NCBI GenBank assembly: GCA_014859445.1
Contig: JACUUC010000012.1
Span: 1 to 64,000, forward strand
Source: Bacterioplanes sp.
Lineage (GTDB): Bacteria > Pseudomonadota > Gammaproteobacteria > Pseudomonadales > Oceanobacteraceae
DNA length: 64,000 nt
Reading direction: 5' to 3'
The position numbers and the translations under genes are program-made. Below are positions 47,289-52,266 of this stretch, one piece after another. How positions within the stretch are numbered: the first letter of the stretch is position 1; every line of letters starts with the position of its first letter. The notes under the pieces were generated by a model. It worked only from the letters and a program-made list of their open reading frames with translations. It searched no databases and was not told the origin of the DNA.

Positions 47289-47981
47289 ATGTCAGCCGTG
47301 ATGCCCATTTTTTTCCGAATGTCATTGACCGCCATGTTGACTTTGGCTGTCAGCTTGTTGGGACTGTTGTTGAGTTCAAATGCATGGTCGCAGTGGCTAA
47401 CGGTTGTCGATCAGCATGGTGATCCTGTCGCGCAGGCGATTGTGACCTTTGTGGGTGTTCCATCACCAATCGATGTCAGTCAATTGGCCGTTGTTGATCA
47501 AGTCGAGCAACAATTTTCTCCGCAACAGCGGGTCATTGCCCCTGGGCAGCGCGTGTCTTTTCCCAATAGCGATAATATTCGCCATCATGTGTATTCCTTT
47601 TCAACACCTAAGGTCTTTGAAATCCGTTTGTACGCCGATACGCCCGAAGCGCCCATTCTGTTTGATCAAGCGGGTGTGGTGGTGTTGGGGTGTAACATTC
47701 ATGACAACATGATTGGTCACTTGTACATCAGTGCGGATTTGAGTCTGATCACGGATGATCTTGGTCGAGTGTTGTTGCCTGACGGCGCGAACGATATCTA
47801 TTTATGGCATACGCGATATCAATTGGATGATGAGCAGCGTTTGTTGGTCCGCGCCTCTCAGTGGCAATCGTCGGTGTCTGACTCGCCCAGTGTACGTTTG
47901 CCCTTAGCCGTGCCCCTTGCAAGGGACAAGCAAATGACACCGACATCCGGTTTTGGCAATCATTTCCGGATGGGACATTGA
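47289..47981 (+). CDS. cupredoxin-like periplasmic protein (methylamine-utilisation type)
   Basis: A 230-residue exported protein with a signal peptide (residues 1-35, cut near AWSQ). The mature part is a cupredoxin fold with a complete type-1 copper set: a His in the NSDNIRHHVYSFS segment, then Cys, His and Met in GCNIHDNMIGHLYI. Proteins of this kind are usually labelled methylamine utilisation protein, but no methylamine genes are near. The N-terminal part resembles a carboxypeptidase-regulatory-like strand set (VVDQHGDPVAQAIVTF). It starts a four-gene operon and is 4 bases from the EAL gene. It should carry electrons or bind copper in the periplasm. Confidence 0.8.
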   Translation: MSAVMPIFFRMSLTAMLTLAVSLLGLLLSSNAWSQWLTVVDQHGDPVAQAIVTFVGVPSPIDVSQLAVVDQVEQQFSPQQRVIAPGQRVSFPNSDNIRHHVYSFSTPKVFEIRLYADTPEAPILFDQAGVVVLGCNIHDNMIGHLYISADLSLITDDLGRVLLPDGANDIYLWHTRYQLDDEQRLLVRASQWQSSVSDSPSVRLPLAVPLARDKQMTPTSGFGNHFRMGH

Positions 47982-47984
47982 TCC

Positions 47985-50354
47985 ATGCTGTGGCGTTTAT
48001 TGCGAAGTTTTCGCGCTCAAATTCTGGCGTTTGCATTGGCCATGGTGTTGTTGGCCACGATATCCATTTTGGTGTTGGTGTTTTTGAATACCGCGCGTTC
48101 CTTTCAACTGCAAGCGAATAGCAATATTGATCAAGCCTTACAAGTCTTTGAGCAACGTCTTTCTAGCCGAGAGCAGCAGTTGGAAATCAGTGCGGCGGTA
48201 CTGGTTGCTGATTTCGGTTTTAAGCAGGCGCTCAGCAGTCGCGATCAAGCGACGATTGTCAGCGCATTGAATAATCAAGGTGCGCGAATTCAAGCGGATC
48301 TGATGTTTACCTTAAATCTACAGGGCGACGTGACGGCCAGTAGTCGTGATCAGGTGAACGACAAAATTTCCGTGTCGATGGCGGAATTGATGCAATCGGT
48401 GAGCAATCGCACTTCCTTCTCTCAATTTGAATTGCTGCCATCTGGTTTGTATTTGGTGGTGTATTTGCCCGTGCGGGCGCCGTCGATTATTGGCTTCGTG
48501 GGGGTCGGATTCCAAATGAATGACACCGTACTCGCCAATATCAGTGCGTCGGATGAGGTCGGCGGTACGTTGTTGTTTCAGCGAGACGTCGCAACCGATG
48601 CCAGTGAGCGCCTCGTTTTGGCCAGTTCTTGGCGTCCAGCGTTGGCGCTTGAGCAGTTGCAAATACAACAGACGTTGAGTTATTGGCCTTGGTTGATGGG
48701 TTTTCAAGACAACCAACGATATTTAAATCGTGACGTGTTGTTGTGGGAAAACGCACATCAGGCGGCATGGATGGTGATTTCCGTGGACGTACAGCCGTTA
48801 TACGAACGTTTTGCTGCACTGCGTGATCGGATTCTATTGGTCAGTGCGATGTTGATACTGATCACGGTACTCGGTAGTTTTGCCATTGCCAGTGGTCTGA
48901 CCGTGCCGCTGCAATCGTTAGTGTATAGTGCGCGTTTGATCGCTCGTGGTCAGTACGATCAATTGCCGGAACGTAGCTTGTTTAATCGGGATATCTCCTT
49001 GTTGAATCGCGCTTTTCGTGCGATGGCGAGAGATTTACAAATACGTGAACACAAAATCGTGTATCAAAACCGTCATGACGTGTTAACGGGATTACTGAAT
49101 CGAGACAGTTTTCAAACCGAGTTAAAAGAGATCATACATAGTCAGGCCGCCTTTTTATTATTTACTTTCAATATGGTTCGGTTTCGCAGTGTGAATGACA
49201 CGCTGGGGCCCGATATTGCTGATGCGTGCTTACAGGTATTTGCCAAGCGACTGCGTTTGTTTCCGGGTTTGCAGTTTGCGGCTCGTTTAGGAGTGGATGA
49301 ATTTTCTGGCATCGTGTTGGTATCGGATACGCAGCTGCCAGCAACGATTTGCCAGCAGTTAGTGCAAGAACTGACACGGCCCATGGTATTGGGTGAAGTG
49401 GAAGTAACACCTGAGATTCGTATGGGCTATACCCACGAAATGGCTTTCCATGAAGATCTACGTACATTGACGCGACGTACGAATATTGCTTTGGAATATG
49501 CTCGGCAACACCATCTCGCGTGTTTTGGCTACCAAGACGGGATGGATAATGCCTATTTGCAGCGTTTAGAGATCATTAAATCGTTGAAATACGCGTTGCA
49601 AGCCAATGACCAGCAGCTGCAAATGTACTACCAGCCGAAAATGGAACTGGCCAGTGGTCATATTACGCAAGCGGAGGCACTCATTCGCTGGCAGCATCCT
49701 GTGGATGGTTTTATGGCGCCAGATATGTTCATTGAGCTGGCCGAGCAAGCAGGCTTTATTGAAGAAGTGACCCGCTGGGTGGTACAACGGGTATTGCATG
49801 ATTTGCAGCAGCTACGAGATGAGGGGCATGCGCTACAGATCGCCATCAATTTATCAGCACAGGATGTGAGTAACCACGAGTTGATGCAATGGTTGCAGGT
49901 ACAGCTTATTCAAGCCGGATTGAGCTCCGCTGATTTGTGCTTGGAATTAACCGAACGTGATGTCACGGCCGATGAAGGTGCTATTTGTACTTCGCTACAG
50001 TGGTTGCAAGAACAAGGGTTCACCATTGCGCTGGACGACTACGGTGTCGGGTATTCGGCGTTGTCTCGATTAGCTACGTTGCCCGTAGACGAAATTAAAA
50101 TCGATAAAAGCTTTGTGCTCGATTTAGCCACCAATGACAGCCATCGTATTATTGTCGAATCGACCATTTTTATGGCGCATAAGTTGAATCTCAGTGTCGT
50201 AGCCGAAGGGGTGGAAGATGCCGATGCGCAAGCGTGGTTAGGCACCCATCAATGCGATGCGATTCAAGGTTACCATTTGGCTCGTCCGATGCCGTTGGCG
50301 ACGTTTATGACGTGGTTGGCCGAATATTCATTACCCCAACAGGAGCGTGTCTAA
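47985..50354 (+). CDS. membrane c-di-GMP phosphodiesterase with periplasmic sensor
   Basis: A 789-residue protein. Two membrane helices (about residues 12-34 and 283-303) frame a periplasmic Cache-like sensor of about 245 residues. A HAMP domain (about 304-356), a GGDEF domain with the altered site GVDEF (436-440) and an EAL domain (about 530-785) follow. The EAL residues needed for catalysis are present: EAL at 564-566, the LELTE, LDDYG, IKIDKS, VAEGVE and QGYHLARP motifs. It should hydrolyse c-di-GMP in response to a periplasmic signal. It overlaps the DUF3034 gene by one base (TAATG). Confidence 0.9.
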   Translation: MLWRLLRSFRAQILAFALAMVLLATISILVLVFLNTARSFQLQANSNIDQALQVFEQRLSSREQQLEISAAVLVADFGFKQALSSRDQATIVSALNNQGARIQADLMFTLNLQGDVTASSRDQVNDKISVSMAELMQSVSNRTSFSQFELLPSGLYLVVYLPVRAPSIIGFVGVGFQMNDTVLANISASDEVGGTLLFQRDVATDASERLVLASSWRPALALEQLQIQQTLSYWPWLMGFQDNQRYLNRDVLLWENAHQAAWMVISVDVQPLYERFAALRDRILLVSAMLILITVLGSFAIASGLTVPLQSLVYSARLIARGQYDQLPERSLFNRDISLLNRAFRAMARDLQIREHKIVYQNRHDVLTGLLNRDSFQTELKEIIHSQAAFLLFTFNMVRFRSVNDTLGPDIADACLQVFAKRLRLFPGLQFAARLGVDEFSGIVLVSDTQLPATICQQLVQELTRPMVLGEVEVTPEIRMGYTHEMAFHEDLRTLTRRTNIALEYARQHHLACFGYQDGMDNAYLQRLEIIKSLKYALQANDQQLQMYYQPKMELASGHITQAEALIRWQHPVDGFMAPDMFIELAEQAGFIEEVTRWVVQRVLHDLQQLRDEGHALQIAINLSAQDVSNHELMQWLQVQLIQAGLSSADLCLELTERDVTADEGAICTSLQWLQEQGFTIALDDYGVGYSALSRLATLPVDEIKIDKSFVLDLATNDSHRIIVESTIFMAHKLNLSVVAEGVEDADAQAWLGTHQCDAIQGYHLARPMPLATFMTWLAEYSLPQQERV

Positions 50355-51205
50355 TGCCGCCGTTTGTAAAGCGATACCAGATGTTGATTGTTCTGTTTAC
50401 TGCGCTATTCAGTGTCAATGCCGTCGCTGGCAGTCAGTTGTTGGCAACGGGCGGTGTGACCCAAGTGGAGGGCAGTGCTGGTGGTGGATTGGTTCCTTGG
50501 GCGGTGATTGCCGGTTATGGAGATGCTAATGAATACAGCTCTGGTGCATTTACCACGCAAGTGGATTTGGCTGATTTTCGTTTACACAGTGTCGGTGCTT
50601 ATGCGTCTTGGGATAATCGCTGGGAATTATCCGCTAGCCAGCAGCGCTTTACCGTTAAGCAAACCGATGTGGTGCTGCGCCAAGAAGTGTATGGCGTGAA
50701 AGCGCGAATAGCGGGTGATGTACTTTATGGCCCTGGACCACAGTGGTCGTTGGGAGTGCAGTACAAACGCTTATTGGATGACGCGGTGGCACAGTCACTA
50801 TCGGCCGATAAAACCCATGCCGACCTGGATGTGTATTTGGCGGCGAGTCAAATACATTTGGCCGCGTTTGCGGGGTATAACGTGATGTGGAATGCCACGT
50901 TGCGCGCCAGTCGTGCCAATCAATTAGGCTTTTTGGGCTACGGCGGTGACGAACAGCAACGTCATCAGTCATTGCTCGAGGTATCGGCTCTCATGTTAGT
51001 CCGGCCCGACCTAGCCATCGGTGTTGAGTATCGACAAAAACCCGATAATTTGTCGGCCATTAAAGAAGATGATTGGTACGATGTGTTTGTCGCTTGGTTT
51101 CCGAATAAGCACGTCAGTGTGACCGCCGCTTGGGCGCATACAGGGCGCATCGCGGGTAGTGATAAGCAGGAAGGTATGTACTGGTCGTTAGCGACTTTCT
51201 TTTAA
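50354..51205 (+). CDS. DUF3034 family outer-membrane-like protein
   Basis: A 283-residue exported protein of the DUF3034 family. A signal peptide covers about residues 1-24 (cut near VAGS). Alternating strands and a closing SLATFF with terminal Phe indicate an outer-membrane beta barrel. The ATG at 50354 overlaps the previous stop (TAATG) and has AGGAG 8 bases upstream; the longer frame from 50234 lies within the phosphodiesterase gene. The family function is unknown. Confidence 0.88.
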   Translation: MPPFVKRYQMLIVLFTALFSVNAVAGSQLLATGGVTQVEGSAGGGLVPWAVIAGYGDANEYSSGAFTTQVDLADFRLHSVGAYASWDNRWELSASQQRFTVKQTDVVLRQEVYGVKARIAGDVLYGPGPQWSLGVQYKRLLDDAVAQSLSADKTHADLDVYLAASQIHLAAFAGYNVMWNATLRASRANQLGFLGYGGDEQQRHQSLLEVSALMLVRPDLAIGVEYRQKPDNLSAIKEDDWYDVFVAWFPNKHVSVTAAWAHTGRIAGSDKQEGMYWSLATFF

Positions 51206-51224
51206 TTCGGTCTGGGGAGATGAG

Positions 51225-51650
51225 ATGAAATCGTCCTTGCTGTCTTGTGGTGTGCTGTTATCGAGTGCGCTGTTGTTGTCGCTACCTGTTCATAGTCAGT
51301 CTTTGTATGAGCGCTTAGGTGGGGAGGCGGGTATGCTGGCCATCACCAATGCCTTTATCGAGGAAATCAGTTTTGATGCGATGGTTTATCCTTACTTTCG
51401 TACGTCGGATATTGGCCGATTTCAGGCCAAGTTCAGTGAGCAATTGTGCGTTGCCGTCAATGGACCTTGCGAATACACGGGGGATTCGATGTTACTGGTA
51501 CACCGTGGCATGGGTATTGATGAAGCGGCATTCAATAGGACGGTTGAATTGTTGCAAGCAGCGATGACGCGAGAAGGCGTTCATCATACCGATCAGAATC
51601 GTATCTTGAAGCAATTTGCGCCGATGCGCGCTGATATTATCCATCAATGA
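51225..51650 (+). CDS. exported group 1 truncated hemoglobin
   Basis: A 141-residue protein with a signal peptide (residues 1-24, hydrophobic core then PVHSQS) and a truncated-hemoglobin domain. It begins LYERLGGEAG, the usual N-terminal hallmark, and the proximal heme ligand is His93 in LLVHRGMGI. It should bind heme in the periplasm and could react with O2 or NO. Export of such a hemoglobin is unusual. It is the last gene of the operon that starts at 47289, 19 bases after the DUF3034 stop. Confidence 0.88.
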   Translation: MKSSLLSCGVLLSSALLLSLPVHSQSLYERLGGEAGMLAITNAFIEEISFDAMVYPYFRTSDIGRFQAKFSEQLCVAVNGPCEYTGDSMLLVHRGMGIDEAAFNRTVELLQAAMTREGVHHTDQNRILKQFAPMRADIIHQ

Positions 51651-51753: not shown

Positions 51754-52266
51754 TTAGCGTGGGCATACTTCATTGATTAGGCGGTCCTGCGCATGTAACA
51801 CGCGGCGCTGTGCTAAATCGGCTTGTCCTTGTAAATCGGTCGGAATCAATTCTAACGTGCTGCAATTCAACACATAGGCTTGCTTGCTCAAACGATCAAC
51901 ATGCTGCTTTTCAAACCGGTACAGAATAAACCGTGCAACGGTGGTGTGTTCATTGAGGCGTTGCTGTGCAATGGCGTTGCTATCCAGTACGGTGAAAGCG
52001 GTAATCATGGGGAAGGTGTGCGTCCATGGTCGCCAAGCATTCGGAGTGGTTTCTGTGGCGACGACCACCGACTCGGCGGGCAAACGCTGCTGTTGATGAT
52101 CAAACCACGCGTATTCCCAACTGATTTGATACCCCAACATACCCGCTCCGGCAAACACGGGGATGATCCATTTTGGCAATAAGTTGCCTGTGATCTTGCG
52201 TAAAATTAAGGCGATACCTGCGGCACCAAGGCCAGCCGCAATCATGGCAATGATAGTCCAAATCAT
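51754..52266 (-). CDS. membrane-anchored hypothetical protein
   Basis: A 170-residue protein with two hydrophobic segments near the N-terminus (about residues 2-22 and 32-48) and a periplasmic or cytoplasmic C-terminal domain with Cys residues (NCSTLELI and EVCPR). The ATG at 52266 has AGGAAA 8-9 bases upstream. It is downstream of actP in the same direction but separated by hairpins. I do not recognise a named family. Confidence 0.7.
   Translation of the reverse strand: MIWTIIAMIAAGLGAAGIALILRKITGNLLPKWIIPVFAGAGMLGYQISWEYAWFDHQQQRLPAESVVVATETTPNAWRPWTHTFPMITAFTVLDSNAIAQQRLNEHTTVARFILYRFEKQHVDRLSKQAYVLNCSTLELIPTDLQGQADLAQRRVLHAQDRLINEVCPR

Follow-up and report, generated by a model that had tools for sequence, protein, structure and literature searches.

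A four-gene cassette of Bacterioplanes sp. as a candidate trans-envelope signalling unit of cupredoxin, Cache receptor, DUF3034 barrel and exported truncated globin

Four plus-strand genes at 47289-51650 of a 64,000-nt stretch of Bacterioplanes sp. contig JACUUC010000012.1 (the window; positions are those of the forward strand) encode, in this order, a cupredoxin (CUP), a membrane receptor with Cache, GGDEF and EAL domains, a DUF3034 protein and an exported truncated globin (GLB). The four genes very probably form one unit of joint function. That they constitute a single trans-envelope signalling unit, with the cupredoxin reporting to the Cache receptor, is a reading to which we give about even chances, both the signal and the contact being what we infer. 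An original prediction, made from the DNA alone, had already singled out this cassette, and its coordinates, gene order, common strand and spacing were all reproduced from the open reading frame (ORF) coordinates: the gaps measure 3, -1 and 19 bases, the DUF3034 start ATG overlapping the receptor stop as TAATG. Beyond that prediction, sequence comparison suggests that CUP and receptor belong to a wider module with exchangeable outputs and presumed barrels, the globin being tied to the DUF3034 version.

The distribution of DUF3034 bears on joint function. The family is carried by 15 of 274 genomes of the class and by 11 of 35 relatives, the window's own genome counting in both. In the class sample, each of the 10 genomes whose DUF3034 is typical (at least 316 bits) also has a globin scoring at least 100 bits with the cassette profile; such a globin is present in three of the 259 genomes that lack DUF3034 and in none of the five where DUF3034 is divergent or partial. 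GLB stands beside DUF3034 in each of 80 named loci, which are the best 80 of at least 545 confirmed, and CUP, receptor, DUF3034 and GLB follow in order in 66 of them by script, or 68 when L079 and L097 are added (Lnnn denotes the locus labels of our analysis), both mislabelled through overlapping or fused ORFs. Three of the 80 retain DUF3034 and GLB alone, two of these close to a contig end. When the loci are clustered at 70% DUF3034 identity, the resulting 38 groups contain CUP in 36 cases, the receptor in 35, DUF3034 in 37 (a count that omits L097, where it is fused) and GLB in 38; the next neighbour family reaches 6. Across Gammaproteobacteria the four families thus co-occur in this order, a positive outcome of the genome check originally proposed, and in other classes of the phylum the cassette is found rearranged. 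In six genomes of those classes (L182, L193, L194, L195, L196 and L197) CUP-receptor is divergent from DUF3034-GLB, and L044 and L047 hold the cassette genes in other orders. Linkage persists through rearrangement, which argues for a joint function. Mostly opposite-strand genes separate CUP-receptor from DUF3034-GLB at L062:3247-7514 and L076:3562-7592, the halves still lying near each other.

CUP (47289..47981, plus strand, 230 aa) carries a signal peptide and is a predicted periplasmic cupredoxin inserted in a carboxypeptidase-regulatory-like domain. Searched as a single sequence, the window protein matched nothing in NCBIfam and, in Pfam, nothing above cut-off. No dedicated Pfam or NCBIfam model was found for its family either in a search with 41 members, of which 15 match CarboxypepD_reg and four Cupredoxin_1. 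In the AlphaFold2 model (predicted local distance difference test, pLDDT, 89.6) model residues ~30-116 superpose on plastocyanins, amicyanins and other cupredoxins (Z 10-12), with 4hcg_B among them (VIA Z 12.1, root-mean-square deviation (rmsd) 1.7, 85 residues) and 50 rows with Z >10 among the structure matches listed. The putative type-1 copper ligands are His99, kept in 76 of 76 CUP rows, and Cys135, His138 and Met141, kept in 75 (the exceptional row is a gap in L059, where the cup gene is split over two ORFs); all four are kept in 71 of 71 CUPs of a wider set with various receptor outputs. The fold match and the conserved ligands bear out the cupredoxin-like protein first proposed and predict copper binding. 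Amicyanin has a loop of the C-x2-H-x2-M type, and CUP resembles amicyanin, pseudoazurin and plastocyanin in fold and in its His plus C-x2-H-x2-M ligands. In contrast to these proteins, however, it is inserted in a CarboxypepD_reg-like domain and encoded with a sensory receptor, and the window cassette includes no electron-transfer enzyme. Distant CUP relatives lie beside a cytochrome c (L145, by Pfam) or adjoin proteins that are MauG-like by sequence appearance (L146, L204); the "methylamine utilization" label of such cupredoxins may stem from contexts of this type.

The receptor (47985..50354, plus strand, 789 aa) is a predicted inner-membrane protein in which a first transmembrane segment, dCache_3, a second transmembrane segment, HAMP, a degenerate GGDEF and EAL succeed one another. 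Pfam matches are strong for EAL (1.4e-69), GGDEF (8.7e-20) and dCache_3 (7.7e-13; 49 bits against a cut-off of 25.7), the latter lying between the membrane segments, and the HAMP match is below cut-off. The two hydrophobic segments, 8-38 and 276-309, leave a presumed periplasmic part of ~240 residues, in agreement with the earlier description of a membrane EAL protein with a large periplasmic sensor. Residues E564, N622, E654, D684, D685, K705 and E741 show no variation across 70 sequences, and this complete EAL catalytic set predicts a cyclic diguanylate (c-di-GMP) phosphodiesterase. GGDEF itself occurs in a minority of the 70 rows; the window receptor reads RLGVDEF and so lacks the intact GG(D/E)EF of a diguanylate cyclase. 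In Xanthomonas phaseoli ATCC 49119 receptor and DUF3034 appear as a single 1073-aa ORF (L097:5592-8813), by fusion or frameshift, and in the one genome that holds L039 and L003 the EAL and DUF3034 genes are in several ORF pieces, through decay or assembly error.

DUF3034 (50354..51205, plus strand, 283 aa) matches PF11231 (4e-98, 328.5 bits), and its predicted model is a 12-strand barrel (pLDDT 82.5, the first 22 model residues <50), so that the beta-barrel of the original prediction is retained here as a predicted outer-membrane one. An N-terminal EG..GGG..PW segment is conserved and of low confidence in the model. The best structural match is FapF (VIA Z 20.0, rmsd 2.9, 219 residues); KdgM-like barrels are also similar, the copper transporter PcoB reaches just Z 12.8, and the matches span barrels of many functions. 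In the accessible text of the literature found, the name DUF3034 is used merely in passing. A second context is seen in L048, L049 and L050, where a divergent DUF3034 without CUP or GLB lies near a PAS-sigma54 activator-Fis regulator (assigned by Pfam in L048 and L050). The family also occurs on 13 plasmid records, from Caballeronia (9), Novosphingobium (3) and Paraburkholderia (1).

GLB (51225..51650, plus strand, 141 aa) matches PF01152 (1.8e-14), and a hydrophobic leader forms its N-terminus, as expected of the signal-peptide-bearing truncated hemoglobin that had been proposed. Group 1 truncated hemoglobins, which it resembles, are usually cytoplasmic, and a cytoplasmic location had been named as a finding that would speak against the prediction; the N-terminal sequence of GLB instead predicts export. 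Most relatives are predicted lipoproteins, with Cys at the lipobox column in ~95% of 81 rows and the strict lipobox pattern in 67 of 80 relatives, a hit in the window GLB being discounted as false; in the window, as in L052, L053 and L055, the closest of the named relatives, the leader is of the ordinary kind without lipobox. Judged from sequence, heme binding is likewise favoured, the proximal His F8 (His93) being kept in 81 of 81 cassette globins and in 29 of 29 further ones. Helix positions derive from an alignment to 1dlw and the helix numbering of that structure. Cys75 and Cys82 are also kept in all 81, and the distal pocket (Ile45, Phe66 and Phe70 in the window) is apolar: B10 is Leu, Ile or Val, with one Thr and no Tyr, E7 is Phe or Leu, and E11 is Leu, Phe, Ile or Met. 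The 29 additional cassette globins, two of them identical to rows of the 81 set and others possibly from shared organisms, agree with this pattern, with no Tyr and one Asn at B10. In contrast, 11 non-cassette globins have Tyr B10 in 11 cases, Gln E7 in 10 and Gln E11 in 10, and none has both Cys; these 11 are the ones among 30 fetched globins that scored at least 25 bits with the cassette profile, the rest, including the second globin of the window genome (L001, 16 bits), being dropped as unalignable. GLB thus shares sequence family and proximal His with group 1 truncated hemoglobins (TrHbN) but differs from them in its export, its Cys pair and the lack of Tyr B10 and Gln E7/E11. In ordinary truncated hemoglobins Tyr B10 and Gln E11 have a role in nitric oxide (NO) dioxygenation, and an apolar distal pocket should favour NO or carbon monoxide over stable O2 binding. 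O2, one of the sensed molecules originally suggested, is therefore a less likely cue, and O2 storage or a classical NO dioxygenase role is disfavoured by the same pocket. Lys E10, which ligates the heme in THB1 and might do so in GLB, is present in 46 of the 81 and hence no universal feature.

At E 1e-6 a CUP profile detects the family in 56 of the 274 genomes of the class, and at E 1e-12 in 57 of 398 from the phylum. Seventy-one loci were annotated, namely 56 of 63 phylum hits and 15 class hits picked for having no adjacent DUF3034. Left out were the window, three phylum hits fetched earlier, three of at most 66.8 bits and, from the class, G137 (75.8 bits), whose reading frame is interrupted by a stop, along with every weaker hit. 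Full-cassette loci of the class are also absent from this table, so that its proportions do not mirror those in nature. Within 2.5 kb of CUP a Cache receptor was found at 49 of the 58 strong loci (at least 140 bits), compared with Cache matches in 0 of 196 control ORFs (at least 150 aa, >3 kb from CUP). Since this detection partly used the same receptors as queries, Pfam provides the independent support: it assigns adenylate/guanylate cyclase outputs in L132, L136, L137, L168 and L184, a histidine kinase in L133 and Ser/Thr kinases in L140-L143 and L203. The Pfam Cache match falls short of the cut-off in L133 (dCache_3, 20.9 bits), L141 and L143 (both dCache_1) and exceeds it in the remaining output-assigned loci. 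Twenty-eight strong loci combine a Cache-GGDEF-EAL receptor with DUF3034 and GLB. Cache-EAL receptors accompany a 410-aa presumed porin in eight, a 300-aa presumed barrel in two and no recognised barrel in five; Cache-cyclases stand with the 300-aa presumed barrel in three and with a CXXCH-HAMP protein in two, both of one genus (L136, L137), and a Cache-histidine kinase with a porin in one. The 13 weaker loci include five beside Cache-Ser/Thr kinases and one beside another receptor, a hybrid kinase. GLB is present at 29 of 29 strong loci with DUF3034 and at none of the 29 without, 21 of which keep a receptor.

This survey makes CUP look like a common input partner with an exchangeable output, and DUF3034 plus GLB looks, from these comparisons, like one outer-envelope version of the CUP-receptor system. 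The 410-aa and 300-aa families are called barrels from their leader, C-terminal residues and, for one of them, a sub-threshold OMP_b-brl match; neither family profile finds a convincing solved structure, and hhalign detects no similarity of DUF3034 to them (probability 1-3%). The third gene of the L136 and L137 CUP-Cache-cyclase operons (L136:6970-8271, L137:7655-8953), where no globin is recognised, encodes a hydrophobic N-terminus, CXXCH and HAMP with no recognised output, and is possibly a c-heme sensor partner; PF11845 (sCache_heme) gave no match to either protein, just HAMP at E 0.001 with CXXCH in both.

In the mechanism that we put forward, the periplasmic cupredoxin would act on the Cache receptor as a diffusible input, an assignment for and against which we see equal chances. 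The outer-membrane side, that is the DUF3034 barrel and the globin, would set the copper-loaded or redox state of CUP, and this state would alter its encounter with the Cache domain and so switch c-di-GMP hydrolysis. The likeliest cue might be NO, or a redox change coupled to it at the heme of GLB, with copper second; NO is a first guess because of the GLB pocket and because the CXXCH-HAMP protein of L136 and L137 resembles the NO-responsive sCache_heme proteins, and taken by itself it remains an unlikely one. Other lineages would couple this cupredoxin-Cache input to a cyclase, histidine kinase or Ser/Thr kinase; their presumed barrels differ, or none is recognised, and the globin is missing. 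Whether this might be a general architecture of Proteobacteria, in which a periplasmic cupredoxin is an exchangeable co-receptor for Cache receptors of c-di-GMP, cyclic nucleotide, histidine kinase and Ser/Thr kinase type, supplied at the outer membrane by interchangeable barrels that are joined, where DUF3034 is the barrel, by a lipid-anchored hemoglobin sensing NO or redox beyond the cytoplasm, is a possibility that we hold only tentatively and rather doubt.

Several observations weigh against the cupredoxin as receptor input. Seven of the 80 named loci have CUP-DUF3034-GLB without a receptor, and L085 and L096 have receptor-DUF3034-GLB without a recognised CUP. Among the strong CUP loci, five hold the 410-aa presumed porin and no receptor within 2.5 kb (L162, L169, L172, L180, L183), one holds DUF3034 and GLB without receptor, one a barrel only, and two nothing recognised nearby; seven of the 13 weaker loci have no receptor by this test, L205 yet having a PAS hybrid kinase near. 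The partial correlation of evolutionary distances over 67 loci points to no special link between CUP and Cache (0.06, 95% interval -0.05 to 0.16), compared with 0.28 for CUP-DUF3034 and 0.24 for CUP-GLB; that between CUP and the EAL domain is weakly positive (0.19) and speaks, if anything, for the signalling reading. Upstream of CUP, consensus patterns for FNR/Anr, CueR, Fur, sigma-54, NsrR and NorR occur in at most 2 of 74 loci versus 0-2 in the control of one random stretch per locus. A promoter and terminator scan gave no excess over shuffles. The five porin loci without receptor might also represent a minimal CUP-barrel pair.

An alternative scenario is a periplasmic redox enzyme pair, in which electrons pass from CUP to GLB for NO reduction or oxidation, or for peroxide removal near the outer membrane, and the receptor is merely co-expressed, adjusting lifestyle to the stress that both respond to, and not switched by CUP. 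The cupredoxin fold with its type-1 ligands, the CUP-GLB distance correlation, the receptor-free cassettes and the cytochrome c or MauG-like neighbours of distant CUP relatives are all consistent with it. However, strong CUP loci without DUF3034 lack GLB while mostly keeping a receptor, and the globin is devoid of the Tyr B10/Gln E11 of ordinary truncated hemoglobins, so that we deem this scenario unlikely. That the genes are neighbours by chance or hitch-hiking, with no function in common, is strongly disfavoured and extremely improbable: wider synteny is indeed shared by close relatives (L029, L032-L035), but apart from these four no family is seen in more than 6 of the 38 groups, and their linkage outlasts rearrangement.

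The barrel could also be assigned a transport function. In a copper or heme supply system, DUF3034 would be an outer-membrane pore, CUP and GLB periplasmic carriers, and the receptor a sensor of the loaded carrier controlling attachment. Such a reading fits the layout of barrel, metal carrier and receptor, and in the accessible text on Pseudomonas aeruginosa PA14 one CHASE4 receptor is reported to bind copper and another heme (PMC13277305), but it is quite improbable, given that the four window proteins include no uptake family, that the model matches FapF and KdgM-like barrels with PcoB well behind, and that Fur- or CueR-like sites are not enriched upstream. The top rank of FapF, a barrel serving functional amyloid, together with the conserved N-terminal segment of DUF3034, would instead suit an export or display channel that brings GLB or CUP to the cell surface or into the matrix while the receptor monitors secretion. 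Given that the matching barrels serve many functions, that most relatives of GLB are predicted to carry a lipid anchor, and that two presumed barrel families without detectable DUF3034 similarity lie near CUP elsewhere, we find little probability in this reading too.

The signalling reading has precedents in its general layout. NspS is a periplasmic binding protein. NspS-MbaA is named in PMC8967002, and in YfiBNR a GGDEF/EAL receptor of the inner membrane is reported to be under the control of an outer-membrane or periplasmic protein (PMC4887326). In both, as proposed here, an extracytoplasmic partner controls an inner-membrane c-di-GMP enzyme. The present system differs in that the partner is a cupredoxin rather than YfiR or a solute-binding protein (neither the window CUP nor any of 41 family members had a Pfam or NCBIfam match to such proteins), in its non-c-di-GMP outputs, and in the added barrel and globin. 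Periplasmic heme or copper sensing is tied to c-di-GMP in the P. aeruginosa CHASE4 GGDEF-EAL receptors PA14_53310 and PA14_37690 (PMC13277305, available portions). There the receptor domain binds the ligand, whereas here separate predicted copper and heme proteins stand beside a dCache_3 receptor. Similarly, Cache proteins with CXXCH fused to signalling modules have reported NO-sensor properties (PMC12889525, in the passages retrieved). These sCache_heme (DUF3365/Tll0287) sensors also couple extracytoplasmic heme to signalling, and the CXXCH-HAMP protein of the L136 and L137 cassettes recalls them, but their c-type heme is in the receptor itself, in contrast to the separate globin of the window.

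No publication on this cassette was recognised in a literature search whose scope excluded subscription papers and most preprints. The retrieved parts of PMC11372557 (which treats RbdA), PMC6637768, PMC3770913 and PMC11102522 contained nothing bearing on it, and the searched text of PMC8846402, which may be odd, had no passage on copper, hemoglobin, cupredoxin, YfiR, NspS or truncated. The layout of extracytoplasmic partner and c-di-GMP receptor is known, whereas the text covered by the search yielded no cupredoxin partner, no swapping of output classes and no exported globin. If the signalling reading is true, it would provide a function for DUF3034, for a cupredoxin family for which no dedicated Pfam or NCBIfam model was found and for exported hemoglobins, and the pairing of copper protein and receptor would join the known bacterial ways of sensing the exterior. 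The version with c-di-GMP output is also relevant to how departure from a biofilm might be set off by NO or by redox conditions in the envelope. With outputs exchanged and a constant cupredoxin-Cache input, the system also suits clean domain-swap tests.

Between GLB and actP, on the minus strand (51754-52266), lies a 170-aa ORF with a hydrophobic start and no Pfam or NCBIfam match. The original prediction had placed the cassette within an acetate island, between an exonuclease gene and actP. Part of this is shared: ActP relatives 69-71% identical, together with an upstream DUF294, recur in L029 and L032-L035, and the exonuclease label is present in four of these five. The context is nevertheless purely local and incidental to the cassette, as no non-cassette neighbour family occurs in more than 6 of the 38 groups in the wider set of loci.

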